Below, piece after piece: positions 10,329-27,799 of a stretch of DNA of 41,786 nt (positions are counted from its first letter, which is position 1; each line of letters opens with the position of its first letter). A program made the position numbers and the translations under genes. Origin of the DNA: an uncultured Magnetospirillum sp. (GTDB lineage Bacteria; Pseudomonadota; Alphaproteobacteria; Rhodospirillales; Magnetospirillaceae). A model generated the notes under the pieces. It saw nothing but the letters and a program-made list of their open reading frames with translations, did not search any database and had not been told where the DNA came from. The stretch is from positions 1 through 41,786 of the forward strand of contig NZ_CAINTR010000112.1 in NCBI RefSeq assembly GCF_903853455.1, in the 5' to 3' direction.

Positions 10329-10379
10329 GGTCCCGCCGCTCCGTGAGACATCGCCGGAACCATAGCCATGGGGTAAGAA

Positions 10380-10511: not shown

Positions 10512-10575
10512 CTAATGGAAGGCTGTTTCGATTGTGCTGTGCCGTTATTACGGGAATATTTAATGGATACTTTCT

Positions 10576-10603
10576 AAAACCTCGCCCCCTGGGCTGGGGG
10601 CGC
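10576..10603 (-). terminator. Terminator after hdrB
   Basis: On the minus strand CGCCCCC, loop AGCCCA and GGGGGCG (10583-10602) are followed by AGGTTTT. It lies 25 bp after the hdrB stop and probably ends the sat-qmo-hdr transcript. Confidence 0.7.
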
Positions 10604-10627
10604 CTACCCGAACGAAGCAGCCCGGTC

Positions 10628-11527
10628 TTACTTCGCCCGCGACAGCACGGCGTCCGGCGGGATCAGGTGCTGGTGCAGGCCGGCGTCGGCCTTGGCGTCC
10701 ATTCCCATGGCCACCGCCAGCAACTGGCTGTAGAACACCACCGGGATGTTGAAGTCGGTGCCGAACTGCTGGTTGATCGCCGGCTGGTACATTTCCAGGT
10801 TGGTCTGGCACAGCGGGCAGGGGGTGGAGACCACGTCGGCGCCCGACGCCTTGACCTCGTCCAGGATGTCCTTCATCAGGTGCAGGGTCTTGTCGGGGCT
10901 GATCACCGCCACCGAACCGCCGCAGCACTTGGTCTTGCCCTTGAACGGCACCGCCTCGGCGCCGCAGGCCTTGGTGAAGTCGTCGAGGAAGCTGGGGTCG
11001 TCATAGGTCTCCCATTTGCCGCCGCGCTCGGTGGCGGCGAAGGGGCGCACCGTCTGGCAGCCGACCCAGCCGGCCACCTTGAGCCCGGTCAGGGGATTGG
11101 TCACCGCCGATTTCAGCGTGTCCATGCGGACGTCGTTGACCAGCACTTCGCAGATGTGGCGCACATGCAGCGAGCCGTCGTAGGACTTTCCGGCTTCGGC
11201 CAGGGCCTCGTTGACCTCGGCCTTGACCTCTGGCTTGTCCCGGATTTCCTCGTTGGTGTGGTGAGTGTTGAGGTAGCAGGCGGCGCAGGGTGTCACCACG
11301 TCCTCGGGACCGGCGGCCCGGGCGGCGGCCAGGTTGCGGCCCGACAGCGCCAGGGTCGGCACATGGCCGGAGCAGATATGGCCGACCGACGCGCCGCAGC
11401 AGTTCCAGTCGTCGATCTCGCGGAAGGTGATGCCCACCTTGCTCATCACCGCCTTCAGCGAGGTGTCGAGGTGAACGCCGGTGGCCTGGCTGCTACAGCC
11501 GGGGTAGTACGACAGGGTCTTGGTCAT
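10628..11527 (-). CDS. hdrB: HdrB-like heterodisulfide reductase subunit B
   Basis: A 299-residue soluble CCG-domain protein with two full cysteine-rich motifs: Cys11, Cys43-Cys44, Cys81 and Cys84; then Cys157, Cys201-Cys202, Cys237 and Cys240. In methanogen HdrB such motifs bind noncubane [4Fe-4S] clusters. No membrane segment is present. It is the last gene of the sat-qmoA-qmoB-hdrC-hdrB row, a position where many sulfur organisms have the membrane subunit qmoC. The likely role is electron transfer between QmoAB/AprBA and an acceptor not identified here. The ATG at 11527 is chosen because GAGGTGA lies just upstream; a GTG at 11536 would overlap that ribosome-binding site. The gap to hdrC holds a family-2 repeat. 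Confidence 0.88.
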   Translation of the reverse strand: MTKTLSYYPGCSSQATGVHLDTSLKAVMSKVGITFREIDDWNCCGASVGHICSGHVPTLALSGRNLAAARAAGPEDVVTPCAACYLNTHHTNEEIRDKPEVKAEVNEALAEAGKSYDGSLHVRHICEVLVNDVRMDTLKSAVTNPLTGLKVAGWVGCQTVRPFAATERGGKWETYDDPSFLDDFTKACGAEAVPFKGKTKCCGGSVAVISPDKTLHLMKDILDEVKASGADVVSTPCPLCQTNLEMYQPAINQQFGTDFNIPVVFYSQLLAVAMGMDAKADAGLHQHLIPPDAVLSRAK

Positions 11528-11573
11528 AACAGTCACCTCAATCCCGGCGAGTCCCTGACGTGACTCGCCTTAT

Positions 11574-11678
11574 TGTCCCTCAAGCGCCGGGCGCTCGCGC
11601 TTGGCTTTCGCGGCATAAGCCGCGCCGGGCCTTGCCCGCAACTCCGAGCCAATGAACACGTTCATTGGCTCGTCGGTA
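11574..11678 (+). repeat. Family-2 structured repeat, copy d
   Basis: It lies between hdrC (stop at 11679) and hdrB. It has TTGTCCCTCAAGCGCCGGGCG, stem GCGGC/GCCGC (11610-11614 with 11619-11623, loop ATAA), the linker GCCGGGCCTTGCCCGCAACT and a perfect 12-bp hairpin GAGCCAATGAAC (11646-11657) pairing with 11660-11671. Read on the mRNA strand, the hairpin starts 7 bases after the hdrC stop codon. It may stabilise or attenuate the intercistronic mRNA. Confidence 0.75.
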
Positions 11679-12287
11679 TTACGTCGCGTGCCGGGCTTCG
11701 ATCTCGGCCGCCTTGGCCAGGATCTTCCGAAGCTCGCCGGCGTTCTTGCATGTGTGCGGCAGGCCGAGATGCATGCGCTTGGCCTTCACCATCCCCTTGG
11801 CGATGGCCAGATTGGCCATGGACTTCTTGAAGCCGGCGGATAGGCCGTAGCTGAAGTAGAACCTGGCGGTGACCAGACGCTCGTCGGTGCGGCCGAACTT
11901 GGCGGCCGACCACCAGAACGCCCGCGCGAACCGGGCGTTGTCGCTGTCGACCGATTGGGCGTAGCCCTCGCGCACCGCCACCGTGAACAGGGATTGCAGG
12001 ATGTACTTGACCGGCACCTTGCGGGGGCAGCGCACCACGCAGTTATAGCAGGACACGCAGGCCGCCATGGAATTGGAGGACAGCACCTCCTCCTTCATGC
12101 CGGCGCGGATCATCATGAACAGCTTGCGCGGACCAAAATCCATCTGGGCGCCGATGGGGCACGAGCCGGAGCAGGTGCCGCACTGCATGCACAGCGCCAG
12201 GCGGTCGCCGCCGTCCACGTTGCGGTAGACCCAGCGGGCGAAGGACAGGTCGTATTTCTTGGTGGGCGTGGGAGACAGGGCATTCAT
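11679..12287 (-). CDS. hdrC: HdrC-like iron-sulfur subunit
   Basis: A 202-residue soluble protein with two ferredoxin-type cysteine sets, CMQCGTCSGSCP (Cys33, 36, 39, 43) and CVSCYNCVVRCP (Cys77, 80, 83, 87). This spacing and the helical tail match HdrC and the N-terminal half of QmoC. The heme-b-type membrane domain of QmoC is missing: no hydrophobic spans follow residue 100. The ATG at 12287 lies 2 bp after the qmoB stop, so translation is probably coupled. It likely passes electrons between QmoB and HdrB in the cytoplasm. Confidence 0.88.
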   Translation of the reverse strand: MNALSPTPTKKYDLSFARWVYRNVDGGDRLALCMQCGTCSGSCPIGAQMDFGPRKLFMMIRAGMKEEVLSSNSMAACVSCYNCVVRCPRKVPVKYILQSLFTVAVREGYAQSVDSDNARFARAFWWSAAKFGRTDERLVTARFYFSYGLSAGFKKSMANLAIAKGMVKAKRMHLGLPHTCKNAGELRKILAKAAEIEARHAT

Positions 12288-12289
12288 GC

Positions 12290-14548
12290 TCAGAACCCCT
12301 TGAACGGGTTGAAGCCGATGGCGGTGATCTGCTCGACGAAGGCATCGATCACCTTGGGCAGGCGGTCGGCATCGGCGATGGAGGCCTCGGCCTGGGTGAC
12401 CCGCTCGGGCTCCAGCATCATGCTTTTCAGCGTCTCGCCCACCTTGGACAGGCGTTCGGCCGCCATGGCCGAGCCCTTGACGAAGTGGCACTGGTAGTCG
12501 TCGCCGGGCTTGCAGCCCATCATCATGACGCCGTCATAGCCGGCCGACAGGGCGTCGGAGATGCACAGCAGGCTGACCGAGCCCAGGCAGCGCACCGGCA
12601 GGATGCGCACATGCGCCGACCACTGGTTGCGCTTGATGCCGGCCATATCCAGCGCCGGGACGGCGTCGTTCTCGCAGGCCATGATCAGGATGCGCGGCTT
12701 GCCCGAGAACTCGTCGGGGATCTTCACCGCCTTGATCATGGAGGACAGCATGTCCACCGAGTAGTTGTCGAAGCTGATGGCCCGCACCGGGCAGGCGCCC
12801 ATGCAGGTGCCGCAGCGGCGGCAGCGGGTGCTGTTGACGATGGGGTAGGTCTGCTCGTCCTCGTCGATGGCGCCGAACGGGCATTCCACCGTGCAGCGCT
12901 TGCACTTGGTGCACTGGTTCAGGCTGACCTTGGGGTAGGACAGGTCGCCGACGCGGGGATGCAGCGCCGCTCCGGCCGATGCCGAGCGCACCGCCTGCAC
13001 CGCCTTCAGCACCGCGCCGGAGGCGTCTTCGGCGGCTTCGGCCCAGTCCATCGGGCGTCGCACCGGACCGGCGGTATAAATGCCGGTGCGGCGGGTCTCG
13101 TAGGGGAAGCAGATGTAGTGCGAATCGGCGAAGCCGTCGTGCAGCACCGGTAGGTGCGGCCCCTGGCGATATTGCAGGTTCAGCAGCGAGCCGCCATCGG
13201 GAATAGCCTGTTCGCGCTTGGCATGGACGGCGGGGGCGGTGCCGCCGCAATAGCCGGCCACTGGGAACGGCACTTCCGGGTCCACATCGCCGGCCAACTG
13301 GTCGGCGCCTTCGGCCGGGGCGGGGGCGTTGGGGGTGGTGGAGTTGGGCACCATGCCGGTGGCCAGCACCACCAGATCGAGGCCGGCCAGCGGGATCTCC
13401 TCGCCGATCAGCTCGTCGGCGACGGTAATGGTGAGATCTGCTCCCACTCCCTTGACCTTGCCCTTCATGAAGATGACGCCGGCCGCCTGGGCGGAGCGGT
13501 ACAGCTCCTCCATCACGCCGGGGGTGCGCATCTCCTCGTAGACCACATAAGCGTTGGTGTCGGGATCGGCCTCGATCAGCTCCAGCGCCTGCTTCAGCGA
13601 GGTGGCGCAGCAGATGGACGAGCAATAGGGCAGGTGGTCGGGATCGCGCGAGCCGGCGCACTGGACGAAGGCCACCGACTTGACCGGGGCGCCGTTGGAC
13701 TTGCGCTTGACCGCGCCGGCTTTCAGCATGCCTTCCAGCTCGATTCCGGTCACCACGTCGGGCGAGGCGCCGTAGCCGAGATGGCCCAGCTTGGTGGCGT
13801 CATAGGGCCGCCAGCCGGTGGCGACGACGATGGCGCCCACTGTCTCGACGCTGCCGTCGGACAGGTTGACCACGAAGCGGCCGGGCATGCCGGAGGTCTG
13901 GGTGACGGTGCAGCCCAAGCGCACCGCGATCTTGGCGTTGCCGGTCACCGCGGCGACCAGGGCTTCGATGTCGTTGGCCTCGGGCTTGGCGTAGGGCGGG
14001 GTATGCGGCAGCCGCTTGGAGGCGTCCAGCGCCCGGCCGCCCAGGCGGTCGCTTTGTTCCAGCAGCAGCACGTCGTGGCCCAGCGCGGCGGATTGCGCCG
14101 CCGCCGCCAGACCGGTGACGCCGCCGCCCATGACCAGGATACGGCTGGACCACTCGCCCTCCACAGAGGGCTCGGGGGCCTTCACCTTGGGGGCCTGGGT
14201 CAGCACCATGCGCACGGCATCCTCGGCCAGCGCCTGGGTGTCCTCGTGATTGGCGGGATGGCTCCAGATCACCTTTTCGCGCAGGTCGGCGCGCAGCACC
14301 TGGACCGGCTCGAAGCCGAAGCGGTCGCTCATCACCCGCGCCGAACAGGCGGCGATGGCCACCTGATTGACCCCCGCCTCCAGGTCGGCCTTGATCATGG
14401 CGACGCCCTCGTCGCCGCACAGGCAGGCATGGGACTTGGAGTCCAGCTTGAACTCCTTCTTGGCGACGCCTTCCAGGGCGGGGACGTCCACGGCGTCGCC
14501 GATGCCGCAGCCGCTGCACAGATAGATCCCGGTCTTCCTCTCGGTCAT
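12290..14548 (-). CDS. qmoB: QmoB, HdrA-like flavin/iron-sulfur subunit
   Basis: A 752-residue cytoplasmic flavoprotein. N-terminal cysteines CSGC (11-14) and CLC (42-44) precede an FAD-binding Rossmann fold (RILVMGGGVTGLAAAAQSAA from residue 136). The HdrA signature QCAGSRD with YCSSICC follows, then two ferredoxin sets CTKCKRCTVECP and CRRCGTCMGACP at about 558-605. The C-terminal MvhD-like domain has ILIMACENDA, RCLGSVS and GCKPGDDYQC. This order (HdrA plus MvhD) is that of QmoB, which exchanges electrons between AprBA and the quinone pool. It starts 12 bp after qmoA with GGAGTAGAGG upstream. Confidence 0.93.
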   Translation of the reverse strand: MTERKTGIYLCSGCGIGDAVDVPALEGVAKKEFKLDSKSHACLCGDEGVAMIKADLEAGVNQVAIAACSARVMSDRFGFEPVQVLRADLREKVIWSHPANHEDTQALAEDAVRMVLTQAPKVKAPEPSVEGEWSSRILVMGGGVTGLAAAAQSAALGHDVLLLEQSDRLGGRALDASKRLPHTPPYAKPEANDIEALVAAVTGNAKIAVRLGCTVTQTSGMPGRFVVNLSDGSVETVGAIVVATGWRPYDATKLGHLGYGASPDVVTGIELEGMLKAGAVKRKSNGAPVKSVAFVQCAGSRDPDHLPYCSSICCATSLKQALELIEADPDTNAYVVYEEMRTPGVMEELYRSAQAAGVIFMKGKVKGVGADLTITVADELIGEEIPLAGLDLVVLATGMVPNSTTPNAPAPAEGADQLAGDVDPEVPFPVAGYCGGTAPAVHAKREQAIPDGGSLLNLQYRQGPHLPVLHDGFADSHYICFPYETRRTGIYTAGPVRRPMDWAEAAEDASGAVLKAVQAVRSASAGAALHPRVGDLSYPKVSLNQCTKCKRCTVECPFGAIDEDEQTYPIVNSTRCRRCGTCMGACPVRAISFDNYSVDMLSSMIKAVKIPDEFSGKPRILIMACENDAVPALDMAGIKRNQWSAHVRILPVRCLGSVSLLCISDALSAGYDGVMMMGCKPGDDYQCHFVKGSAMAAERLSKVGETLKSMMLEPERVTQAEASIADADRLPKVIDAFVEQITAIGFNPFKGF

Positions 14549-14560
14549 GTCCCTCTACTC

Positions 14561-15820
14561 CTAACCGCGCACGCCCGAGACGACCTGGATGGCCTTGCAG
14601 GCCGCGGCGGTCGCCGATTGAACCGACATGGAGACGTCCAGCGGCCCGGAGGCGACGCCGGCGCCGATGGTCTCGCCCTCGGTGAAGACGAAGCCGTAAT
14701 CGTCGTAGGATCCGGCCAGCCTGCCGTCGCCCTCCACCGAGGCCTGCATGCCGGTGGCCAGCACCACCAGATCGTAGGGCTGGGCATAGACGTCGCGGGT
14801 CAGGGTGTTCTCGCCGCACACCACGGGATTGTCCTCCGCGCCGGCCTCGATGCGGGCCGGCTTGGACTTGACGAAGCGCACCTGCGGATCGGCCTTGAGG
14901 CGGCGCATGAACGATTCCAGCTTATCGTGGGCGCGCAGGTCGATGTAGTAGACGTCCACCTCGGCCTCGGCCACCTGCTCGCGCACATAGGCGGCGTGCT
15001 TCATGGAGGCGAGGCAGCAGATGCGCGAGCAATAGCCCAGATGGTTGAGGTCGCGCGAGCCGGCGCACTGGATCAGCGCCACCCGCTTGGGCACCGCCCC
15101 GTCGGACGGACGCACGATCCTGCCGCCGGTGGGGCCGTCGGGCGAGGCGAGGCGCTCCATCTCCACATTGGTGATGACGTTGGGCAGCTCGGCCCAGCGA
15201 TAGGCGGTCAGGTTGGCGGCGGGATAGGGCTTCCAGCCGGTGGCCCAGACGATGGCGCCCACCTCCAGGTCGAAGCTGGCGCCCTGGTCGTCGAGATCGA
15301 CCGCGCCGATCTTGCAGGCCGCCTTGATCCGCTCGCCTTCCGGCGTCCTCACCACCTCGGGGGCCACCACATAGCGCATGGGGAAGGCCATGGTATGGGG
15401 CAGCCATGCTGCCTTGACCGTCTTCATGCCGTAATTGAAGGGATCGGCGATCGCGGTCTCGGCGACCTGGGCGCAATCGCCGCAGGCGGTGCAGTTGGGC
15501 TTGACGAAGCGGGGCTCGGTCTTGACCGTCACCGTGTAGGCGCCGGCCGAGCCCTTGACCGCCGCCACGGTGGACAGGGTGAACAGGTTGATGCGCTTGG
15601 ACGTCTTGATGCGCTGGTAGTTGATTTCCAGGCCGCAGGTGGGGTGGCACAGCTTGGGGAAATACCGGTTCATCTGGGCGACGCGGCCGCCGAGCGTCGG
15701 CGACTTCTCCACCATGACCACGTCGTAGCCGGCCTCGGCCGCCTCGACCGCGGCGGTGATGCCGGCGATGCCGCCGCCGACCACCATGATGGTTCGGCTT
15801 TGCGGTTGTTTATCGGTCAT
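14561..15820 (-). CDS. qmoA: QmoA, HdrA-like flavoprotein subunit
   Basis: A 419-residue HdrA-like flavoprotein. FAD binding is shown by TIMVVGGGIAGITAAVEAAE (10-29). It also has CHPTCGLEINYQ near residue 58, CTACGDC near residue 110 and the HdrA signature QCAGSRDLNHLGYCSRICC. It lacks the C-terminal ferredoxin and MvhD domains of QmoB, as expected for QmoA. With QmoB and AprBA it would oxidise or reduce the APS reductase flavin in the cytoplasm. GGGAGAGGGAC directly precedes the ATG. A family-2 repeat fills most of the 153 bp to sat; the row is otherwise tight. Confidence 0.93.
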   Translation of the reverse strand: MTDKQPQSRTIMVVGGGIAGITAAVEAAEAGYDVVMVEKSPTLGGRVAQMNRYFPKLCHPTCGLEINYQRIKTSKRINLFTLSTVAAVKGSAGAYTVTVKTEPRFVKPNCTACGDCAQVAETAIADPFNYGMKTVKAAWLPHTMAFPMRYVVAPEVVRTPEGERIKAACKIGAVDLDDQGASFDLEVGAIVWATGWKPYPAANLTAYRWAELPNVITNVEMERLASPDGPTGGRIVRPSDGAVPKRVALIQCAGSRDLNHLGYCSRICCLASMKHAAYVREQVAEAEVDVYYIDLRAHDKLESFMRRLKADPQVRFVKSKPARIEAGAEDNPVVCGENTLTRDVYAQPYDLVVLATGMQASVEGDGRLAGSYDDYGFVFTEGETIGAGVASGPLDVSMSVQSATAAACKAIQVVSGVRG

Positions 15821-15840
15821 GTCCCTCTCCCCGCTTGTTT

Positions 15841-15950
15841 TTGTCCCTCAATCGCCGGGCGGGATGCGTTTCGCATCCCTTGGCTTTCGCCGCACAAGCG
15901 GCGCCGGGCCTTGCCCGCAACTCCGCGCCTTCTGGCGCGTCGATCCTGGT
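15841..15950 (+). repeat. Family-2 structured repeat, copy e
   Basis: It lies between sat (stop at 15974) and qmoA. It has TTGTCCCTCAATCGCCGGGC, a GGGATGCG/CGCATCCC hairpin (15870-15888 region), stem GCCGC/GCGGC (15889-15893 with 15898-15902, loop ACAA), the constant linker GCCGGGCCTTGCCCGCAACT and a CGCGCC/GGCGCG hairpin (15924-15939). The stems differ from the other copies but stay paired. Confidence 0.75.
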
Positions 15951-15973
15951 ATCTCAATCGCGGGGCTCGCCCT

Positions 15974-17143
15974 TCACAAACTGGCGTAGTATTCGCGCAG
16001 GATGGCCACCACCTCGGGACGGCTGAATTCCGGCGGGATGGGCTCGCCCTTGGACAGCATCTCGCGCTGCTTGGTGCCGGAGATGTTGACCTGATCCTCC
16101 TTGCCGTGGGGGCAGGTCTTGGCGGTGGCCATGCCGTAGCACTTCTTGCAAAAGAAGGTGATGTCGATCTTCAGCGGCTGGGTCTCCAGCGCTCCCGGCG
16201 CCAGGGTGTCGAAGATGTGCTGGGCGTCGAACGGGCCGTAATAGTCGCCGACCCCGGCATGGTCGCGGCCGACGATCAGGTGCGAGCAGCCGAAATTCTG
16301 GCGGATCAGGGCGTGGATCAGGGCTTCCCGTGGGCCGGCGTAGCGCATCTCGATGGGATAGCCGGCCTGGATCACCGTTCCGGGCACGAAATAGCCCTCG
16401 ATCATGGCCTGGATGGCCTTGGTGCGGATTTCGGCGGGAATGTCGCCGGGCTTCAGCTTGCCCAGCACCTGATGGATGAACACCCCGTCGCAGACCTCGA
16501 CCGCGATCTTGGCCAGATGCTCGTGCGAGCGGTGCATGGGGTTGCGGGTCTGGAAGGCGGCGACCCGCGACCAGCCCTTTTCGGCGAAGATGGCGCGCGA
16601 TTCGGCCGGGCGCAGATAAAGGCCCTTGTACTTGGCGGGGTACTCGCCCTCGGACAGGCAGCTCACCCGTCCGGCCAGGTTGACCGGGCCTTGCTCGTTG
16701 ACCTTCTCGACGCCGGGATGCTTGGGGTCGGTGGTGCGGTAGATGTGCTGGCACTCGAAGGCGCGGTCGATCTCGTATTTTTCCGAGACCACCATGGTCG
16801 CCATGATCTCGCCGGTGTCGCCGTCCACCAGCGCCACCTCCTCGTCGTCCTTGATGGCCTTGGCCAGTTCGCGGCTGCACGACAGGGTGATGGGGATCGG
16901 CCAGAACAGGCCGGACTCGGTGCGCATCTCGGCGCAGACGCCCCTCCAGTCCTTGGACCCCATGAAGCCGTCCAGCGGGGTGTAGGCCCCCATGGCCAGC
17001 ATGATGACGTCGGAGGTCTCGCGACTGGTCATGGGAACCGGGCGCAAGCTGCCCGCGCGCTTCAGCTCTTCCTTGCGTTCGATTTCGGGCAACAGCAACG
17101 GCTTGAGCGCGCCGCCGCCATGAGGCTGCACCAGCTTGGACAT
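15974..17143 (-). CDS. sat: Sulfate adenylyltransferase (ATP sulfurylase)
   Basis: A 389-residue homo-oligomeric ATP sulfurylase of the dissimilatory Sat type, not the CysDN type. The nucleotide-binding motif [11 protein letters not shown] (198-208) carries the two catalytic histidines, and [11 protein letters not shown] (292-302) is the second signature. Cys332, Cys335, Cys344 and His346 form a zinc-site pattern seen in bacterial Sat. In sulfur oxidation it runs in reverse: APS plus pyrophosphate gives sulfate plus ATP. The ATG at 17143 is preferred because GGAG lies 4-7 bp upstream and [10 protein letters not shown] is the usual start. It heads the qmoAB-hdrCB row and is divergent from aprBA. 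Confidence 0.95.
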
Positions 17144-17249
17144 GTCTCCAGCACTCCCATCTCTCATTTTTGCGGACGCCTCTGACGGGCCTCTCGTCTC
17201 ACATTATGAAAATCTAAATTACAGATCTTTTCCACAAGAATCTGCTTAT
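17144..17249 (-). promoter_or_regulatory. AT-rich leader upstream of sat
   Basis: The spacer between the MazG-like gene and sat turns AT-rich at about 17200-17270, in contrast to the surrounding GC-rich DNA. It includes CATAAT and TAATTT hexamers on the minus strand. This fits a separate promoter for sat-qmoAB-hdrCB, but I cannot fix a -35/-10 pair. Confidence 0.4.
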
Positions 17250-17630
17250 TTAGTAAAGCTCGTTATATTTCCGCGTGTTGCCCCGGGATTTGGCCACCGG
17301 GTACTTCGACTCGTTGACCGCGATCTTGGCCGCTCCCGCCCGCGCCAGGTCGATGCCGAGGCGTTCGGCCAGCAGCAGCAGGTAGAGGAAGACGTCGGCG
17401 CATTCCTCCTCCAACCGGGCCTTGATGGTCGGTTCGGCCATGGCGAGCTCGACCTCGGCATCGGTTTTCCATTGGGTGACCTCCATCAGCTCGGCGGCTT
17501 CCAGCGCCAGCGAGACGATCAGATTTTTCACCGTGTGGAACTGTTTCCAGTCGCGGGCGTCGCGGAAGGCGATCAGCCGCTCGGTCAGTTCGGCCAGCGA
17601 AGGAGGGGAGGGTAATTCCGATTCTTTCAT
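17250..17630 (-). CDS. MazG-like nucleotide pyrophosphohydrolase
   Basis: A 126-residue all-alpha NTP pyrophosphohydrolase of the MazG/RS21-C6 (dCTPase-like) group, which cleaves NTP or dNTP to NMP plus pyrophosphate. The metal-binding signature E-x2-E-x28-E-x2-D is present as Glu44, Glu47, Glu76 and Asp79. The length fits the short single-domain form. The start may be the ATG at 17630 or a GTG at 17642; neither has a strong ribosome-binding site. It lies upstream of sat on the same strand, 106 bp away, and divergent from aprB. A link to pyrophosphate supply for reverse Sat is speculative. Confidence 0.8.
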   Translation of the reverse strand: MKESELPSPPSLAELTERLIAFRDARDWKQFHTVKNLIVSLALEAAELMEVTQWKTDAEVELAMAEPTIKARLEEECADVFLYLLLLAERLGIDLARAGAAKIAVNESKYPVAKSRGNTRKYNELY

Positions 17631-17666
17631 GATTTCCGCCACATCCGGTGTTTCGTTACGGGAATT

Positions 17667-17735
17667 CCAGAGTTAACGAAATTGTCTAACTCCGGCCTTA
17701 TCTCACGTATTGCAAATATGTAATATGCGTAATAT
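17667..17735. promoter_or_regulatory. Dyad and direct repeats in the aprB upstream region
   Basis: CCAGAGTTA (17667-17675) and TAACTCCGG (17687-17695) form an imperfect inverted repeat (8 of 9 bp) with an 11-bp spacer. Downstream, GTAATAT occurs twice 9 bp apart (17720-17726 and 17729-17735) in an AT-rich patch suited to a promoter. Both lie between the divergent MazG-like and aprB genes, so they are candidates for the control region of aprBA. No regulator is identified. Confidence 0.45.
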
Positions 17736-17851
17736 AAAGAGGAAATAGCTGATCGACCTCGGAGGCGTGGTGGCAGCGTGCCGCCGCTCCTGCGGGCAAC
17801 GATCTGGCGACGAGAGGGAGACCCGCCGAAAAGGCAATAGGGGAGGTTTTA

Positions 17852-18274
17852 ATGCCCACGTTTGTCCATACTGAAAAGTGCGACGGCTGCAAGGGCGGCA
17901 CGGTCACCGCCTGCATGTATATTTGCCCCAATAATCTCATGAAGCTCGATACCGCCCGGATGAAGGCCTTCAATCAAGAGCCGGATCAGTGCTGGGAATG
18001 CCAGTGCTGCGTCAAGGCTTGCCCGCAGCAGGCGATCGAGGTTCGCGCCTACCAGGACTTCGTTCCGATGGGCGGTGCCGTCATTCCCATGCGGACCGAC
18101 AGCGCCATCATGTGGACCATCAAGTTCCGCGACGGCGAAGTGAAGCGCTTCAAGTTCCCGGTTCGCACCACGCCGGTTGGCTCCATCGACCCCTATGCCG
18201 GCAAGTCGGCTCCGGGCAGCCTGGACGACAACCTGCTGTTCACCGAGACCGGCAAGACCCTGCCCAGCATCTGA
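17852..18274 (+). CDS. aprB: APS reductase beta subunit
   Basis: A 140-residue ferredoxin-like subunit of adenylylsulfate reductase. Two [4Fe-4S] cysteine sets are visible: Cys10, 13, 21 and 25 (CDGC followed by CMYIC) and Cys47, 50, 53 and 57 (CWECQCCVKACP). A C-terminal beta-rich tail wraps the alpha subunit in known structures. It carries electrons between the AprA flavin and the QmoA/QmoB system. The ATG at 17852 has a strong GGGGAGG six bases upstream. It is first in an operon with aprA, 57 bp downstream, and the order aprB-aprA is the usual one. Confidence 0.95.
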   Translation: MPTFVHTEKCDGCKGGTVTACMYICPNNLMKLDTARMKAFNQEPDQCWECQCCVKACPQQAIEVRAYQDFVPMGGAVIPMRTDSAIMWTIKFRDGEVKRFKFPVRTTPVGSIDPYAGKSAPGSLDDNLLFTETGKTLPSI

Positions 18275-18331
18275 CGCCGCGACGGCACCAGAACAGCAAC
18301 AGGACTGCGCTTCCAAGGGAAGGAAACGACG

Positions 18332-20254: not shown

Positions 20255-20282
20255 GCCCTTCCCTGCGACGTCGATGACCTGA

Positions 20283-20308
20283 CGGGGCGCCGGCTTGCCG
20301 GCGCCCCG
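20283..20308 (+). terminator. Strong hairpin between aprA and the ykgJ-like gene
   Basis: CGGGGCGCCGGC (20283-20294) and GCCGGCGCCCCG (20297-20308) form a perfect 12-bp stem with a TT loop. There is no clear T-run (ACTTGTCT follows). It may be a weak terminator or a 3' processing stop that lowers expression of the next gene relative to aprBA. Confidence 0.65.
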
Positions 20309-20352
20309 ACTTGTCTCCAGGACAGCCATTCCCCGATCAGAGAGTGCCCCCC

Positions 20353-21309
20353 ATGACCAACGTGCCCCGCACCCCCGACGACGACGAGGACTACTACATC
20401 GACGAGGAGGAACTGGCCGCCAGCACCTATGTGCCGGCCGAGCCCGATCTGCAACTGGAGGTCTTCGACGCGGTGCGCGGCGAGGGCGGCACCCCGGTCA
20501 ACCCGGTGCGGCTGAATGCCGAGGACACTTTCTGCTTCCGCTGCCACAAGGGCGTGTCGTGCTGGAACGAATGCTGCCACGGCGCCGACATCACCCTGAC
20601 CCCGCTGGACATTCTGCGGCTGTCCAAGCATTTCGGGGTGCGGCCGGCCCAGTTCCTGGCCGAGTACACCGTGCCCGCCACCTTCGACAAGTCCAACCTG
20701 CCGGTGGCCAAGCTGAAGATGGCCGGCGCCGCCGGCAAGGGCGCCTGCGCCTTCGTCACCGACGCGGGTTGCTCGGTCTACGCCGCGCGGCCCGCCACCT
20801 GCCGCTATTACCCCCTGGGCGTGGTCTCCATGAAGATGAAGGAGGCCGAGGCCAAGGAGGACTTCAACTTCATCGTCTCCGAACCCCACTGCAAGGGCCA
20901 TTCCGAGGACCACGTCCAGAACGTCGCCGCCTACAAGGCCGAGCAGCAGGTGGCCGAGAACGAGCGGGTCGACCGCGGCTGGATCGACATCCTGATGAAG
21001 ATGACGTCGTGGAGCAGCATGGGCGGTCCCATGGGCAAGGCACCCTCGATCCAGACCCGCAAGATGTTCTTCATGGCCACCGCCGACGTGGACGCCTTCC
21101 GCAGCTTCGTGTTCAACACCCGCTTCCTCGAATCCTACGAAATCGCCCCCGAGGCGGTGGAGATCGTCAAGACCGACGACGAGGCGCTGCTGCTGCTGGG
21201 TTACGACTGGCTGAAATCGGTGCTGTTCAACGAACCCACCCTGGCGCTGAAGGAACATGTCCTCCAAGGCGCCATCGCCAAGGTCCGCACCGACATGGGC
21301 GTGGGGTAA
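20353..21309 (+). CDS. YkgJ-family cysteine-cluster protein next to aprBA
   Basis: A 318-residue cytoplasmic protein. It has a very acidic start (DDDEDYYIDEEE, 9-20), then Cys61, Cys64, Cys70, Cys74 and Cys75 in CFRCHKGVSCWNECCHG, then the family signature CAFVTDAGCSVYAARPATCRYYPLG with Cys132, Cys140 and Cys150. This is the CxxC-CC/RPxxCRxYP pattern of the YkgJ zinc- or iron-chelating family. The C-terminal 150 residues have no recognised motif. No membrane span is seen, so it is not an AprM-type anchor. It starts 98 bp after aprA in the same direction. A role in Fe-S supply or electron transfer for APS reductase is inference. Confidence 0.8.
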   Translation: MTNVPRTPDDDEDYYIDEEELAASTYVPAEPDLQLEVFDAVRGEGGTPVNPVRLNAEDTFCFRCHKGVSCWNECCHGADITLTPLDILRLSKHFGVRPAQFLAEYTVPATFDKSNLPVAKLKMAGAAGKGACAFVTDAGCSVYAARPATCRYYPLGVVSMKMKEAEAKEDFNFIVSEPHCKGHSEDHVQNVAAYKAEQQVAENERVDRGWIDILMKMTSWSSMGGPMGKAPSIQTRKMFFMATADVDAFRSFVFNTRFLESYEIAPEAVEIVKTDDEALLLLGYDWLKSVLFNEPTLALKEHVLQGAIAKVRTDMGVG

Positions 21310-21402
21310 GGGCCTTTTTCCCCCTCCCTCGAGGGAGAGGGCAGGGTGAGGGGGAATTGCCCGCCACGAATCCGGCGTTTGGAGGGGGCGATTCCCCGCT
21401 CC

Positions 21403-21520
21403 CCAGTCTCGTCACCCCCGTGCTTGACACGGGGGTCCACGTGGTGCCGTCGCATGGCAGCCTGAGGTGCGGATGGGCGTGGATCACCGGGACAAGCCCG
21501 GTGACGACGGCTGTTGGTGG
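21403..21520. repeat. Solitary outer module related to family-1 repeats
   Basis: Its reverse complement shows the same order as the left end of the copy at 24.96 kb: a GGCTTGTCCCGGTGATCCAC palindrome, then CCCATCCGCACC, then GCACCACGTGGA, ending in a CCCCCGTG/CACGGGGG hairpin (21415-21435). The CACCAAG core is absent. It lies in the 745-bp gene-free gap 21310-22054. Confidence 0.6.
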
Positions 21521-21558
21521 TCGGGCTCCGGGGGCGATGCCTGCTCGGCCGGCAGAAT

Positions 21559-21718
21559 CAAGGACACGAATGAACACGAATGAACACGAATAAGAATATG
21601 CCGATCAATCTTCATGCCAGAGTGGGCGGCGTGTGGTCTTGCGATGTTTGGCCAAGCCTATGATGGCGTAATCTCGATTAAAAACATTCGTGTTCATTCG
21701 TGTTCATTCGTGTCTCCC
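21559..21718. repeat. Long inverted repeat of ACACGAATGA units
   Basis: The left arm (21559-21591) has three 10-bp units ACACGAATGA; the right arm (21686-21718) is their reverse complement (TTCATTCGTG units). The arms match over about 28 bp and enclose about 95 bp of AT-richer DNA with no gene seen. Confidence 0.75.
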
Positions 21719-21740
21719 TTGCTGTTGTGTGAACGATGGA

Positions 21741-21812
21741 TCACTTCATCTTGAGCAGGTTGCGAAGCGCAAGGCCGACCAGGAAGATGAACACCGGCAA
21801 GGCTTCGGGGTG
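21741..21812 (-). pseudogene. Possible tail of a membrane protein gene
   Basis: On the minus strand a short frame of about 23 codons reads HPEALPVFIFLVGLALRNLL and ends KMK plus TGA. It looks like the last transmembrane helix and basic tail of a membrane protein. Upstream, the frame runs straight into a palindromic repeat (21816), so it may be the stub of a gene cut by that repeat. It is too short to assign. Confidence 0.3.
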
Positions 21813-21815
21813 TCT

Positions 21816-21968
21816 CCCTCTCCCGCTTGCGGGAGAGGGTCGGGTGAGGGCGGCCCGTGCGGCAGCGCGGGCCTCGCGTCAGCGAATGAGTCGGATGGGA
21901 CGGAGAGAGGCCCTCACCCTCCCACCGCTGCGCGGCGGGTCCCTCCCTCTCCCGCAAGCGGGCGAGGG
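21816..21968. repeat. Inverted pair of CCCTCTCCCGC palindromes
   Basis: Two 24-bp palindromic blocks (21816-21839 and 21945-21968) each form an 11-bp hairpin of the CCCTCTCCCGC/GCGGGAGAGGG type. Between them GGGTGAGGGC and GCCCTCACCC are also inverted, so the whole unit is one large inverted repeat. A half copy is at 3951-4011. Confidence 0.75.
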
Positions 21969-22054
21969 AACAAAGCTTTCCCGGTTGCCTTATTAGAACG
22001 TTCTAAAGTAATCTGCGCCAACGGCAGCTATGGCGAATGAGGAGGGGAATTGGC

Positions 22055-24955
22055 ATGAGGGATCCCGCGTCCATACCGGATTCCGAACTCGGGCGGTCCG
22101 AGGTCAAGACCACCACCTGCTATATGTGCGCCTGCCGCTGCGGCATCCGGGTGCATTTGCGTGACGGCGAGATCCGCTATATCGAGGGCAATCCCGACCA
22201 CCCGCTCAACAAGGGGGTGATGTGCGCCAAGGGCGCGTCCGGCATCATGAAGCAGTACTCGCCGGCGCGGCTGACCGTTCCCTTGAAGCGCAAGGACGGC
22301 GCCGAGCGCGGCACCAGCCAGTTCGAGCCCATCAGCTGGGAGGAGGCGTTCGCCACCCTGGCCGAGCGGTTGGGCCATTTGCGCGCCACCGATCCCAAGA
22401 AGTTCGCCCTGTTCACCGGCCGCGACCAGATGCAGGCGCTGACCGGCCTGTTCGCCAAGCAGTTCGGCACCCCCAACTACGCCGCCCATGGCGGTTTCTG
22501 CTCGGTCAACATGGCGGCCGGCATGATCTACACCATCGGCGGCAGCTTCTGGGAGTTCGGCGGCCCCGACCTGGAGCGGGCCAAGCTGTTCATCATGATC
22601 GGCACCGCCGAGGACCACCACTCCAACCCCATGAAGATGGAGCTGGGCAAGTTCAAGCGCTCGGGCGGCCGCTTCATCGCGGTCAATCCGGTGCGCACCG
22701 GCTATGCCGCCATCGCCGACGAATGGGTTCCCATCCGTCCCGGCACCGACGGGGCGCTGCTGCTGGCCCTGATCCACGAGATCATCGAGCTGGGCCTGTT
22801 CGACCGCGAATTCCTCATCCGCTACACCAACGCCGCCGAGCTGGTGAACCAGGACTCCGCCAGCGACGACCACGGGTTGTTCGTGCGCGATCCCGACGTG
22901 CCGGTGCGGCCCGACACCTTCGAGACGCCCGACAAGCTGTGGTGGGACCGCCACAGCGACCGGCCGGTGATCTCGCGCAGCGCTGGCACCGACGGCCGCC
23001 TGATGGGCGTCTACACCCTGGACGATGGCACCCCGGTCAAGCCGTCCTTCCAACTGCTCAAGGAGCGGGTCAAGGACTACCCCCCCGACTGGGCCGAGGG
23101 CATCACCGGCATTCCCGCCGACACTATCCGCCGTCTCGCCCACGAGATGGGGGTGACGGCGCGCGACCAGACCATCGAACTCCCCATCGCCTGGACCGAT
23201 TCCTGGGGCGTCGAGCACGACAAGGTCACCGGCAATCCGGTGGCCTTCCACGCCATGCGCGGACTGGCCGCCCATTCCAACGGCTTCCACGCCATCCGGG
23301 CGCTAGCCATCCTGATGACCCTGCTGGGCACCATCGACCGCCCCGGCGGCTTCCGCCACAAGGCGCCGTTTCCCCGGCCGATCCCGCCCTGTCCCAAGCC
23401 ACCCAAGGGGCCGCAGGCCATCAAGGCCGGCGAGCCGCTGACCGGAACGCCCCTGGGCTGGCCGGCCGATCCCGACGACCTGTCGGTGGACGCCCAGGGC
23501 GAGGCCATCCGGCTGGACAAGGGCTTTTCCTGGGAGTTCCCGCTGTCGGTCCACGGGTTGATGCACAACGCCATCACCAACGCCTGGAAGGGCGATCCCT
23601 ATCCCATCGACACCATGTTGCTGTTCATGGCCAACATGGCGTGGAACTCCAGCATGAACACGTCCGAGGTGCGCAAGATGCTCACCGACAAGGACGAGAG
23701 CGGCGCCTACAAGATCCCGTTCCTGGTGGTGTGCGACGCCTTCCAGTCCGAGACGGTGGCCTTCGCCGACCTGGTGCTGCCCGACACCAGCTATCTCGAA
23801 CGTCACGACGTCATGAGCATCCTCGACCGGCCCATTTCCGAGTTCGACGGGCCGGTGGATTCGGTCCGGGTGCCGATCCTGCCGCCGCTGGGTGACACCA
23901 AGCCGTTCCAGGAGGTGGTCATCGAACTGGCCACCCGCCTCAAGCTGCCCGGCTTCACCAACAAGGACGGCTCGCGCAAGTTCCGCGACTATCCCGACTT
24001 CATCGTCAATTTCGAGACCGAACCGGGGTCCGGCATCGGCTTCCTGTCGGGCTGGCGCGGCAAGGCGGGCGAGAAGTTCCTGGTGGGCGAACCCAACCCC
24101 AACCAGTGGGACATGTACGCCCGCAACAACAACCACTATCACCACGAATTGCCACGCAGCTACCAGTACATGCGCAACTGGAACAAGGGCTATCTGGACT
24201 GGGCCTATCGCCACCGTCTGGTGCGCTACACCGATCCCATCATCCCGCACATCTACTCCGAGGTGTTGCAGAAGTTCCGGCTGGCGGGCGAGGGCAAGTG
24301 GCGCGGCAAGCAGCCGCCCGACCGGCTGCGCGAACGGGTCAAGACCTTCTTCGATCCGCTGCCGTTCTATTACGCCCCGCTGGAATGGGGAAAATCCGAC
24401 AGCAGCGCCTTCCCGCTGGCGGCGCTGACCCAGCGGCCCATGGCCATGTACCATTCCTGGGATTCGCAGAACGCCTGGCTGCGCCAGATCCACACCAGCA
24501 ACGTGCTGTTCGTCCACCCCAAGGTGGGGACGGTGGGCAATTTCGGCGACGGCGCCTGGGTGTGGGTGGAAAGCCCGTGGGGCAAGGTCCGCTGCCAGGC
24601 CCGCTTCAGCGAGGCGCTGGAACCCGGCACGGTGTGGACCTGGAACGCCGTCGGCAAGGCCTCCGGCGCCTGGGGCCTCGACCCCGACGCCAACGAGGCC
24701 AGGAAGGGCTTCCTGCTCAATCACCTGATCACCGAGGAACTGCCCAACATGGCGGGGTCCATCGCCATCTCCAACTCCGACCCGGTCACCGGTCAGGCGG
24801 CATGGTACGACCTCAAGGTGCGGGTGACGGCCTGCCAGCCGGGCGAGGCCGAGGAAAGCTGGCCCCAATTCGATCCCATGCCCCCGGTTCCCGGCCAGAC
24901 CATCGGCTTCAAGAGCAAGGTCCGCGCCTTCATGGCGGGGAGGAAGGGCAAATGA
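22055..24955 (+). CDS. soeA: Sulfite dehydrogenase molybdoprotein SoeA
   Basis: A 966-residue catalytic subunit of the DMSO-reductase molybdopterin family. The N-terminal [4Fe-4S] site is Cys22, Cys25, Cys29 and Cys57 (TTCYMCACRCG and VMCAKG). There is no twin-arginine signal peptide, so the enzyme is cytoplasmic, as in SoeABC and unlike periplasmic thiosulfate/polysulfide reductases. HGGFCSVNMAAG may hold the Mo ligand Cys. Typical substrate and pterin segments follow (LPDTSYLERHDVMSILDRP). It oxidises sulfite to sulfate with SoeB and SoeC. The ATG at 22055 is chosen because GAGGAGGGG lies just upstream; an ATG at 22037 overlaps that site. The operon is broken before soeB by a family-1 repeat. 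Confidence 0.87.
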   Translation: MRDPASIPDSELGRSEVKTTTCYMCACRCGIRVHLRDGEIRYIEGNPDHPLNKGVMCAKGASGIMKQYSPARLTVPLKRKDGAERGTSQFEPISWEEAFATLAERLGHLRATDPKKFALFTGRDQMQALTGLFAKQFGTPNYAAHGGFCSVNMAAGMIYTIGGSFWEFGGPDLERAKLFIMIGTAEDHHSNPMKMELGKFKRSGGRFIAVNPVRTGYAAIADEWVPIRPGTDGALLLALIHEIIELGLFDREFLIRYTNAAELVNQDSASDDHGLFVRDPDVPVRPDTFETPDKLWWDRHSDRPVISRSAGTDGRLMGVYTLDDGTPVKPSFQLLKERVKDYPPDWAEGITGIPADTIRRLAHEMGVTARDQTIELPIAWTDSWGVEHDKVTGNPVAFHAMRGLAAHSNGFHAIRALAILMTLLGTIDRPGGFRHKAPFPRPIPPCPKPPKGPQAIKAGEPLTGTPLGWPADPDDLSVDAQGEAIRLDKGFSWEFPLSVHGLMHNAITNAWKGDPYPIDTMLLFMANMAWNSSMNTSEVRKMLTDKDESGAYKIPFLVVCDAFQSETVAFADLVLPDTSYLERHDVMSILDRPISEFDGPVDSVRVPILPPLGDTKPFQEVVIELATRLKLPGFTNKDGSRKFRDYPDFIVNFETEPGSGIGFLSGWRGKAGEKFLVGEPNPNQWDMYARNNNHYHHELPRSYQYMRNWNKGYLDWAYRHRLVRYTDPIIPHIYSEVLQKFRLAGEGKWRGKQPPDRLRERVKTFFDPLPFYYAPLEWGKSDSSAFPLAALTQRPMAMYHSWDSQNAWLRQIHTSNVLFVHPKVGTVGNFGDGAWVWVESPWGKVRCQARFSEALEPGTVWTWNAVGKASGAWGLDPDANEARKGFLLNHLITEELPNMAGSIAISNSDPVTGQAAWYDLKVRVTACQPGEAEESWPQFDPMPPVPGQTIGFKSKVRAFMAGRKGK

Positions 24956-24963
24956 GCCGCCAC

Positions 24964-25323
24964 TGCCGTCATCACCCGGCTTGTCCCGGTGATCCACGCC
25001 CATCCGCACCACCGGCTGCAATGCCGCAGCACCACGTGGATGCCCGGTTCAAGTCCACGGCCGTCCGGTTTAAATCGAGCGGCTGGTTTGGGGCTGGCGT
25101 TGTCATTCACCACCAAGGCACCAAGGACACTAAGAGGTCTCCTGGGGGGCGCCGCTTCGGCTTCCGTCCGCGCAGCGGACCGTTATTTTATCAGGGCGGG
25201 GATGAAACCCGAATCGATGCGGCCACTCCGCTCTCTTGGTGTCCTTGGTGCCTTGGTGGTAAAGAATCCGCGTCCGTCTGGGATGACGTGGCCGGACAGT
25301 CGCGGATCAAGTCCGGGCATGAC
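24964..25323. repeat. Family-1 nested inverted repeat, copy B (between soeA and soeB)
   Basis: It fills the 397 bp between soeA and soeB. The inner inverted repeat is 25106-25136 with 25233-25260 (CACCAAGGCACCAAGG type). Where the copies at 9.3 and 27.9 kb have CAAGACACC with GGTGTCTTG, this one has CAAGGCACC with GGTGCCTTG, so both arms changed together. The flank arrangement is the same as at 27.8 kb. No coding sequence is seen here. Confidence 0.85.
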
Positions 25324-25352
25324 GAGGTCGTGGTCATTGAGGGGCAACCATC

Positions 25353-26090
25353 ATGAGCAAGGTTCAGCTCGCCCTGGTCATCGACCTCAATGTCTGCGTC
25401 GGCTGCCACGCCTGCGTCACCTCGTGCAAGGAGTGGAACACCTCGGGCTGGGCGGGGCCGCTGACCGACCAGAATCCCTATGGCGCCGATCCCACGGGGG
25501 TGTTCTTCAACCGCGTCCAGACCTATGAATGCGGCACCTATCCCAACACCGAGACCATCCACTTCCCCAAGAGCTGCCTGCATTGCGAGGAACCGCCCTG
25601 CGTGCCGGTCTGCCCCACCGGCGCCAGCTATAAGCGGGAAGAGGACGGCATCGTCCTAGTGGATTACGACAAGTGCATCGGCTGCAAATACTGCTCGTGG
25701 TCATGCCCCTACGGCGCCCGCGAGTTCGACCCGGTCCAAGGCGTGATGAAGAAGTGCACGCTCTGCGTCGACCGCATCACTGACACCACCCTGGCCGAGG
25801 ACCGGCGCAAGCCGGCCTGCGTCCTGGCCTGCCCGCCGGCGGCGCGCATCTTCGGTGACATCAACGACCCCGAGTCCGAGGCGGCCAAGGCCATCCGCGA
25901 TTACGGCGGCTTCCAGCTGATGCCGGAATGGGGGACCAATCCGGCCAACCACTACCTGCCCCGGCGCAAGATCAGCATGACGCTCCACAAGGACGAGCTG
26001 GTCCGCGCCGATAACCCGCTGAAGATCGAGGGCGAACTGCCGCGTCCTAGCTTCAACGCGCCCTCCATCGACGACCTGTCGGGCTGGTGA
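25353..26090 (+). CDS. soeB: Sulfite dehydrogenase iron-sulfur subunit SoeB
   Basis: A 245-residue DmsB-type four-cluster ferredoxin. The first set is Cys15, 18, 21 and 25 (CVGCHACVTSC). It is followed by CLHCEEPPCVPVCPTGA near 75, CIGCKYCSWSCPYGAREF near 108, and CTLCVDRI with CVLACPPAA. It passes electrons from SoeA to the membrane subunit on the cytoplasmic side. The ATG at 25353 has TTGAGGGGCAA shortly upstream. It lies 397 bp after soeA (a family-1 repeat intervenes) and 4 bp before soeC, so soeBC are tightly coupled. Confidence 0.9.
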   Translation: MSKVQLALVIDLNVCVGCHACVTSCKEWNTSGWAGPLTDQNPYGADPTGVFFNRVQTYECGTYPNTETIHFPKSCLHCEEPPCVPVCPTGASYKREEDGIVLVDYDKCIGCKYCSWSCPYGAREFDPVQGVMKKCTLCVDRITDTTLAEDRRKPACVLACPPAARIFGDINDPESEAAKAIRDYGGFQLMPEWGTNPANHYLPRRKISMTLHKDELVRADNPLKIEGELPRPSFNAPSIDDLSGW

Positions 26091-26094
26091 TCCC

Positions 26095-27075
26095 ATGAGA
26101 CCCGCATTCTCCGTCCTCTTCCTCACCACCTTGATCGGCACCGGCCAGGGCCTGCTGATCGCCCTGGTGACGGCGCAGTTCTTCTTCGTGATCGGCTCCG
26201 GCCCCAGCGGTGAAAGTGGCGCCTTCTATGCCCTGGGCAGCGCCCTGGCCCTGGCCCTGCTGGGCCTCGGGCTGGTGGCCTCGTTCTTCCACCTCGCCAA
26301 TCCCCAGCGGGCTTGGCGGTCGGCGGCGAAGTGGCGGACCTCGTGGCTGTCGCGCGAAGTGATCCTGATCCCGGCGGTGTGCGGCCTGACCCTCCTCTAC
26401 GCGCTGGACCATTGGCTGGGCTGGACGCCGGTGCTGATGGTGTTCGCCAACGGCAAGGCGCTGGACCTGCCCATGGCGCTGGGCTTCGCCGCCGCCGCTG
26501 CCGCGCTGGTGCTGTTCGTCTGCACCGGCATGATCTATGCCTGCGTCAAGTTCATCCGCCAGTGGTCGTCCAGCTGGACGGTGATCAACTTCCTGCTGAT
26601 GGGCTTAAGCTCGGGCTTCACCCTGGCCGCCGCCTATGCCGGTCTGATGGACAGCGTGCTGCGCGACTTCCTGGTGGCCGACGCCTTGGCGGCTACCCTG
26701 CTGGCCATGGCGACCCGGCTGTATCAGGTTCGCCGCAACGGCCATGTGCGGTTCCGTTCGTCGCTGAAGACCGCCATCGGCACCCACCATCCCCAGATCC
26801 GCCAGATCACTCAAGGCTTCATGGGGCAAAGCTTCAACACCATCGAATTCACCGCGCCCGGCGGGGCCGGGACGGTGCGGGGCCTGACCGTGTTCTTCAT
26901 CCTGGCCGGCTTCGCCGTGCCGGCGGCGCTGCTGGCGGCCAGCCTGGGCGGCACGGGCGGGGCCTTGCTGGCGGTGGCGGTGGCGAGTCAGTTCGCCGGC
27001 CTGCTGGCGGAACGCTGGGTGTTCTTTGCCGCCGGTGTCCACGTCCAGAATCTCTACTACCAGGCCAAGGCTTAG
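26095..27075 (+). CDS. soeC: Sulfite dehydrogenase membrane subunit SoeC
   Basis: A 326-residue integral membrane protein of the DmsC family, with about eight hydrophobic spans. The family signature FFHLANPQRAWRSAAKWRTSWLSREV (two halves around residue 68 and 80) is clear, and the tail QSFNTIEF with GLLAERWVFF is also typical. It anchors SoeAB to the inner membrane and passes electrons to the quinone pool. It is 4 bp after soeB. The rluA-family gene starts 13 bp downstream and may be co-transcribed. Confidence 0.88.
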   Translation: MRPAFSVLFLTTLIGTGQGLLIALVTAQFFFVIGSGPSGESGAFYALGSALALALLGLGLVASFFHLANPQRAWRSAAKWRTSWLSREVILIPAVCGLTLLYALDHWLGWTPVLMVFANGKALDLPMALGFAAAAAALVLFVCTGMIYACVKFIRQWSSSWTVINFLLMGLSSGFTLAAAYAGLMDSVLRDFLVADALAATLLAMATRLYQVRRNGHVRFRSSLKTAIGTHHPQIRQITQGFMGQSFNTIEFTAPGGAGTVRGLTVFFILAGFAVPAALLAASLGGTGGALLAVAVASQFAGLLAERWVFFAAGVHVQNLYYQAKA

Positions 27076-27781: not shown

Positions 27782-27799
27782 GTAAAATCCCTTTTCAGC

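Follow-up and report, generated by a model that had tools for sequence, protein, structure and literature searches.

Adjoining genes for two cytoplasmic routes of sulfite oxidation in a Magnetospirillum-related bacterium

Why sulfur oxidisers retain several routes of sulfite oxidation is treated as an open question in the available sections of PMC6382920, and functional overlaps of this kind are noted in general in those of PMC6397845. Finding both cytoplasmic routes in one cell, the direct one by SoeABC and the one through adenosine 5'-phosphosulfate (APS) by AprBA and Sat, is already published, and such a dual route is a known kind: Allochromatium vinosum has both SoeABC and AprBA-Sat, and its APS route is not essential (Dahl et al. 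2013, as cited in the available parts of PMC4213376 and PMC6382920). Here we describe a 41,786-nucleotide stretch (the window), contig NZ_CAINTR010000112.1 of an uncultured Magnetospirillum sp. (contig C112 of a genome of 223 contigs and 5.18 Mb), which encodes both routes at one locus. Like A. vinosum, its host combines the two in what we predict to be a dsr-type sulfur oxidiser. However, sat and aprBA of A. vinosum are, we take it, accompanied by the membrane anchor AprM, whereas the window has QmoAB-HdrCB in its place, an alphaproteobacterial host, and soeABC adjoining the APS block.

Three further sets of loci resemble the window in part. Thioalkalivibrio strains ALJ17, ALJ3 and ALE31 (loci L114, L128 and L132) likewise have sat, aprBA and soeABC within 10 kb, but with another AprA type, other gene orders and no QmoAB-HdrCB in the stretch. 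A Thiohalomonas denitrificans metagenome-assembled genome and related genomes (L137, L129 and L138) share with the window the AprA type, a ykgJ-like gene after aprA and adjoining soeABC, and two of the three have qmoB-hdrC-hdrB; yet their aprBA diverge from soeABC, whereas aprBA of the window runs towards it, no MazG-like gene was found there at the cut-off used, and they lie distant from the window on the SoeA tree. Finally, Magnetospirillum moscoviense (L193), strain UT-4 (L192) and other relatives have the same divergent hdrB-hdrC-qmoB-qmoA-sat-MazG / aprB-aprA-ykgJ block, but in L193 and L192 the cassette is not beside soeABC. In the available part of PMC11596669, APS and soe genes stand at different locus numbers. 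Among the sections available to us of the literature on co-occurrence of the routes (PMC6382920, PMC6397845, PMC5099947, PMC11596669 and PMC6137086) and of PMC5024460, PMC8232776, PMC10100899 and PMC4213376, we met no statement of soe-APS clustering; the founding report of 2013 lay outside this comparison, so we do not claim the clustering to be unreported. What the window adds is a clear case, within one genus, of two systems that seem to have come together recently and are probably under separate control, together with a count showing that similar neighbourhoods recur.

Enzyme identities and genome context

Between 10628 and 27075 the minus strand carries hdrB, hdrC, qmoB, qmoA, sat and a MazG-like gene, and the plus strand aprB, aprA, a ykgJ-like gene, soeA, soeB and soeC (Table 1). 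A preliminary description of this DNA had named eleven of these genes and given a span of about 16.5 kb (16.4 kb by the coordinates); all eleven are open frames at the place and on the strand it gave, and its claim that genes for the two cytoplasmic routes adjoin each other is borne out by gene content and families. Its gene list has to be amended in that the MazG-like gene was missed and details of the soeA and hdrC starts were off. We put at roughly 77% the probability that a Magnetospirillum-related dsr-type sulfur oxidiser has here a dual locus for sulfite oxidation, with a relocated APS cassette and separately controlled routes. The gene content, families, phylogenetic place, empty site in a relative (G001) and distinct upstream elements on which this reading draws were computed directly. 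Flux direction, regulation, electron paths and insertion rather than loss are what we infer. Reverse DsrAB, a role assigned from the genes, would yield cytoplasmic sulfite; SoeABC would oxidise it directly, with electrons passing to the quinone pool via SoeC. In parallel, AprBA would convert sulfite and adenosine monophosphate to APS, with electrons passing to QmoAB-HdrCB, and Sat would form sulfate and adenosine triphosphate from APS and pyrophosphate.

The soeABC genes encode, in the order typical of SoeABC, a molybdopterin subunit with an Fe4S4 domain, a 4Fe-4S subunit and a DmsC/NrfD-type anchor. Among the matches listed, none of the Qmo, Hdr, SoeA and SoeB proteins passed the cut-off of an NCBIfam model (SoeC was not in that scan), and these names therefore rest on domains, gene order and relatives. 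SoeA is 73-94% identical to near-group relatives, 68-91% to the 80 named loci (the best of at least 588 confirmed SoeA stretches) and 68-75% to the SoeA of beta- and gammaproteobacterial loci, including sulfur oxidisers. In a FastTree phylogeny of 124 rows, four of them outgroup rows on long branches, it falls in an alphaproteobacterial clade nested in a starred group of 109 rows, which includes homologues from Thiocapsa, Lamprobacter, Sedimenticola, Thiodiazotropha and Thioalkalivibrio. SoeA thus groups with that of known sulfur oxidisers and apart from the other molybdoenzymes in the tree; within the references used, it was not placed with thiosulfate, polysulfide or arsenic enzymes, a placement that the preliminary description had named as decisive against its reading. 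Cys155 of SoeA (in the 972-residue reading) is aligned to Cys173 of chain 2vpw_A, which we take to be the molybdenum ligand. A table in PMC10100899, a source available in part, lists Cys for SoeA.

The same chain, a thiosulfate reductase by name, is the closest solved structure (161 bits, partial coverage), and the available sections of PMC10100899 place bSreA and SoeA in one lineage, which would suit a cytoplasmic sulfur or polysulfide reductase-like enzyme on the bSreA side rather than a sulfite oxidase. We regard this as highly improbable given the 68-75% identity to beta- and gammaproteobacterial SoeA and the nesting within that group; moreover, no NCBIfam reductase model came near its cut-off (PhsA, 218 of 694 bits). 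A second SoeABC-like type was seen in relatives, with SoeA 52-56% identical and in a separate starred clade; G020 has both types, and G028 and G108 have two copies each of the second (the loci concerned in these genomes are L051, L048, L053, L055 and L056). A scan of viral contigs for SoeA gave no confirmed match.

AprA belongs to the dissimilatory family (TIGR02061). In a tree of 34 rows, none labelled by published lineage, the window AprA shares a starred clade with those of G011 and G007, within the alphaproteobacterial rows (support 94). Their side of the tree includes 3gyx, presumably from Desulfovibrio gigas, and three beta- or gammaproteobacterial AprA with ykgJ-like neighbours, while ten such AprA of the other type stand apart; 3gyx also scores above Archaeoglobus (893 vs 754 bits). 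Among the nearest beta- and gammaproteobacterial AprA is that of Thiohalomonas denitrificans, which we take to be a sulfur oxidiser. According to the available sections of PMC5099947, Apr lineage II of sulfur oxidisers is likewise of the sulfate-reducer-side kind, and the window AprA appears to agree with this lineage, found with Qmo/Hdr, and to be separate from lineage I. No qmoC scored over the cut-off in the genome, the two weak matches being hdrC itself (54 bits, cut-off 300) and a place on C19; HdrC and HdrB stand in for QmoC, as in lineage II, and QmoAB-HdrCB is therefore without a recognised membrane subunit in this genome (aprM was not searched for). A search of plasmids for aprA matched two records. 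One match, at 19888-21710 of NZ_CP061967.1 (66% DNA identity over 95%), lies in a 21.8 kb unannotated record from bile labelled as a Klebsiella pneumoniae plasmid and possibly a contaminant from another bacterium.

The genome context appears to favour sulfur oxidation. The search for dsrAB, dsrC and sox genes proposed in the preliminary description was successful: contig C170 carries dsrA (541 bits) and dsrB (502 bits), with dsrE, dsrF, dsrH, dsrC and dsrK likewise over their cut-offs, and soxB lies on C49 (811 bits; over the cut-off in 0 of 14 control genomes). C170 also encodes a candidate DsrL, named NAD(P)-binding protein by NCBIfam, and a protein that matches dsrP weakly, at 67 bits against a cut-off of 350; the tenth open reading frame of its dsr region, tried as dsrM, gave no match. 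The dsrEFH genes are a marker of oxidative sulfur metabolism, and the profile of a sulfate reducer, dsrAB without dsrEFH or sulfur-oxidation genes, is not that of this genome. All dsr-positive sulfur oxidisers compared in PMC6397845, as far as its available sections go, carry soeABC, and the window genome fits this pattern.

These data also bear on whether the APS arm might run reductively, in sulfate respiration or sulfite disposal, with Soe alone oxidising sulfite. The preliminary description had held that an AprA grouping with sulfate reducers in a non-oxidative context would refute its reading. AprA is indeed nearer the sulfate-reducer form and apart from the ten sequences of the other type, and QmoAB with HdrBC is also known in some sulfate reducers (available sections of PMC6137086). 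The context, however, is not reductive, given dsrEFH, soxB and the absence of qmoC over the cut-off, and lineage II of sulfur oxidisers is of the same kind; the T. denitrificans AprA points the same way. From its genome context, a reductive APS arm is very unlikely.

Recurrence and origin of the neighbourhood

Counting as linked any locus with an apr, sat or qmo match of at least 40% identity within the stretch, we found APS-route genes near SoeA in 25 of the 80 named loci, compared to 0 of 80 for rpoC, which served as the yardstick for chance. This is a lower bound, as many contigs are short (46 of 80 span 9.9 kb upstream); two loci (L148 and L154) count as linked through a short match to aprB where the contig ends, and the qmoA call of L146, which also has apr, is fragmentary. 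Both AprA types occur in linked loci. On the SoeA tree (27 rows linked, 56 unlinked and 41 uncounted, with short unlinked contigs set aside, short linked ones kept and five genomes twice among the unlinked) the linkage label changes 9 times, at least 8 by starred branches, against a mean of 22.7 when shuffled. Judged by this tree, linkage follows kinship but has been gained or lost on several occasions. Should selection act on its recurrence in beta-, gamma- and alphaproteobacterial lineages, the routes would be used together or alternately and would not be idle duplicates.

Of the 25 linked loci, 8 have qmoA as the APS-route gene closest to soeA, and 7 of these (L121, L122, L125, L135, L136, L167 and L182) have no apr genes in the stretch, although two of the 7 span less than 3 kb upstream. 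Because no recognised QmoC leaves QmoAB-HdrCB without a known membrane partner, SoeBC could conceivably be the quinone-pool outlet of this soluble complex. Both routes would then be branches of a single system sharing its exit at the membrane, not two alternatives, and their recurring proximity would reflect more than common regulation; the seven loci would fit this, but AprA is encoded elsewhere in 6 of their 7 genomes, and we give the idea hardly any weight. The same six genomes do not support the notion that AprBA is absent where qmo-hdr adjoins soeABC, which would have tied Qmo-Hdr to Soe; the genome without an AprA match, that of L136, may be incomplete. In the genome of L167, one TAA breaks the AprA frame (locus L236).

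Of 17 genomes of the same genus, 13 have SoeA (E up to 1e-150); AprA (E up to 1e-100) was found in three, G000, G007 and G011, each of which also has SoeA. By these counts SoeABC is the more widespread route in this genus, with the APS route as an accessory. We mapped 39 of the 61 SoeA places in relatives (28 of the near group and 11 of the 52-56% group), in stretches that are mostly uneven around soeABC and in some cases short contigs; the APS block adjoins soeABC in one, that of G011. The block itself recurs as a unit in the family (L191-L196, L202, L203 and L205, partly cut by contig ends), is rearranged and without the ykgJ-like gene in G026 (L197), and L198-L200, from the same order, showed no sat, qmo or hdr next to aprBA in the stretches mapped. 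In G007, cassette (L191) and soeABC (L061) lie ~98 kb apart on one contig. Adjacency of the two systems cannot be required, since mapped relatives with both have them apart, except G011. The genus offers a natural experiment, with close species that have SoeABC alone, both systems distant or both adjoining.

The neighbourhood looks recent because in G001, of the same genus, 12 bp separate the hydratase block from the soeA-leader block, compared to ~12.9 kb (9085-21975) at this site in the window. G017, of another genus and rated 7% contaminated, has hydratase, soeABC, rluA and usp in the window's order and no cassette there; its hydratase and soeA are separated by ~2 kb of other DNA, and its APS cassette is on other contigs; the ancestral order hydratase-soeABC-rluA-usp rests on G017, plus G001 for the hydratase-soeA joint. 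The simplest reading of these sequence comparisons is that the APS cassette was recently placed beside soeABC by insertion or relocation, a ready-made cassette having moved between the enoyl-CoA hydratase gene and soeA in an ancestor of the window genome and G011. G011 has tight joints on either side (9 bp left, 66 bp right), where the window shows spacers with repeats. The dispersed repeat family has 24 matches in the genome, query included, 4 of them at three places in the window (one an overlapping inverted match); in the ~670 bp ykgJ-soeA spacer only a piece of ~97 bp matches it.

Upstream elements and control

An element upstream of aprB, ATTGCAAATATGTNANNNNNGTAATAT, occurs once in the genome when up to 3 mismatches are allowed (reversed control, 0), and its core ATTGCAAATATG is present in 11 of 19 aprB upstream regions: 11 of the 16 alphaproteobacterial ones, window included, and none of the 3 from beta- and gammaproteobacteria. 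Upstream of soeA, 18 of 29 alphaproteobacterial near-group regions carry the exact palindrome TTAGN6CTAA, including all 12 same-genus regions examined (from 13 genomes with SoeA, that of G013 being split between contigs). A longer form of this palindrome matches the genome exactly once. At one mismatch 9 more of the 29 match, which is weak in 260-base windows and was left uncounted. In other SoeA loci the palindrome is not general (5 of 75 genome_contigs regions, 3 being alphaproteobacterial). No operator common to the two routes was found: 0 of 19 aprB regions contain the soeA palindrome, and 0 of 29 soeA regions the aprB core. As soeA retains an upstream element of its own, distinct from that of aprB, the two routes are most likely under separate control, and one common switch for soeA and aprB is unlikely. 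The preliminary description had proposed that the cell could switch between a fast route and one that conserves energy; the different upstream elements would allow such separate control, and two such compact elements make it directly testable.

Alternatively, the aprB promoter could drive a single transcript of aprB, aprA, ykgJ and soeABC; the enzymes of the two routes would then always be produced together, with no switch. These genes share a strand, only 66 bp lie between ykgJ and the soeA leader in G011, and sat, qmoA or aprB is often close to soeA in beta- and gammaproteobacterial loci. In the window, however, the repeat-rich spacer intervenes, and the soeA palindrome is conserved also where apr is distant or was not found. 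Furthermore, 22 of the 25 linked loci have their nearest APS-route gene upstream of soeA, and in 15 of these 22 that gene is on the opposite strand, so that soeA has no common transcript with it there. A single operon from aprB to soeC is weakened by the conserved element and these arrangements, and we consider it unlikely. Separate control, possibly with some read-through from aprBA-ykgJ, would fit better.

Several points weigh against the reading that we prefer. The rows of the SoeA tree include neither A. vinosum SoeA nor the bSreA sulfur-reductase branch, which clusters with SoeA in the available sections of PMC10100899. The RuBisCO-family large subunit on C109, which we count towards the oxidative context, belongs to a family that includes RuBisCO-like proteins, and 5 of the 14 controls pass, including Bacillus subtilis. 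At 2 mismatches the soeA pattern has one further genome match and the reversed control 5, so only the exact palindrome is telling; the exact form is absent from 11 of 29 regions, and the aprB core from 5 of 16 alphaproteobacterial ones. No sigma-70 consensus was called at the aprB or soeA element. The clean empty site is found in one same-genus genome only, G001, and that site alone would also fit a deletion there instead of an insertion in the window; in G014, soe, rluA and usp are near hydratase and rpoC yet inverted, and in the other mapped same-genus stretches, G011 excepted, no flank gene of the window was found. Promoter-like sites number 1 (1.5 in shuffles) and terminator-like sites 8 (5.9, standard deviation 2.7).

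Gene starts and accessory genes

Table 1. Features of the locus and its borders, with the evidence for each
Feature	Position	Strand	Evidence or remark
Segment without counterpart at the matching G001 site (metallophosphoesterase gene, APS cassette, repeats)	9085..21975		comparison with G001
Left-border spacer with dispersed repeat	9086..9584		9 bp in G011
hdrB	10628..11536	-	CCG domains
hdrC	11679..12287	-	4Fe-4S protein; start at MNALSP; longest frame to 12491
qmoB	12290..14548	-	HdrA-like, FlpD/MvhD domain at C-terminus
qmoA	14561..15820	-	HdrA-like flavoprotein
sat, ATP sulfurylase	15974..17167	-	TIGR00339, 402 bits (cut-off 323)
MazG-like gene between sat and aprB	17250..17642	-	PF12643, 60 bits
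Conserved element upstream of aprB, ATTGCAAATATGTNANNNNNGTAATAT	17709..17735	+	genome pattern search
aprB	17852..18274	+	recognised by eye; conservation in relatives
aprA, APS reductase alpha subunit	18332..20254	+	TIGR02061, 974 bits (cut-off 642); tree
ykgJ-like gene, CxxCxxCC protein	20311..21309	+	PF03692
Repeat-rich spacer, ykgJ to soeA leader	21305..21975		66 bp in G011
Palindrome before soeA, TTAGAACGTTCTAA	21993..22006	+	pattern comparison of upstream regions
soeA, molybdopterin catalytic subunit	22055..24955	+	Molybdop_Fe4S4, Molybdopterin and Molydop_binding domains; longest frame from 22037
soeA-soeB spacer with dispersed repeat	24958..25336		79 bp in G011
soeB, 4Fe-4S subunit	25353..26090	+	domain match
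soeC, membrane anchor	26095..27075	+	DmsC match
Spacer with dispersed repeat 3' of the cluster	27767..28247		4 bp in G011

Two starts were revised. That of hdrC is probably near 12287, because the longer frame would run into qmoB, and that of soeA is probably 22055 (MRDPASIP...), not 22037, because close relatives have this start in common. The SoeA N-terminus seems to have no Tat-like look, as judged by eye and not by a signal predictor. The soeA-soeB spacer has a hairpin with a T-rich tail, such sites being not clearly above shuffles. Beyond soeC lie a pseudouridine synthase gene and then rpoC and rpoB, the latter pair named by size and recognition.

The MazG-like gene is divergent from and directly upstream of aprB in 12 of the 14 relatives' stretches covering that side, and in 9 of those 12 sat lies directly beyond it. 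Sat consumes pyrophosphate in the oxidative direction, and a nucleotide pyrophosphohydrolase-like protein encoded next to it may be meaningful. A ykgJ-like gene follows aprA in 13 of the 14 relatives' stretches covering the 3' side, and also occurs in three beta- or gammaproteobacterial loci with the window's AprA type (36-39% identity); its product is possibly a cluster-assembly or metal helper of AprBA.

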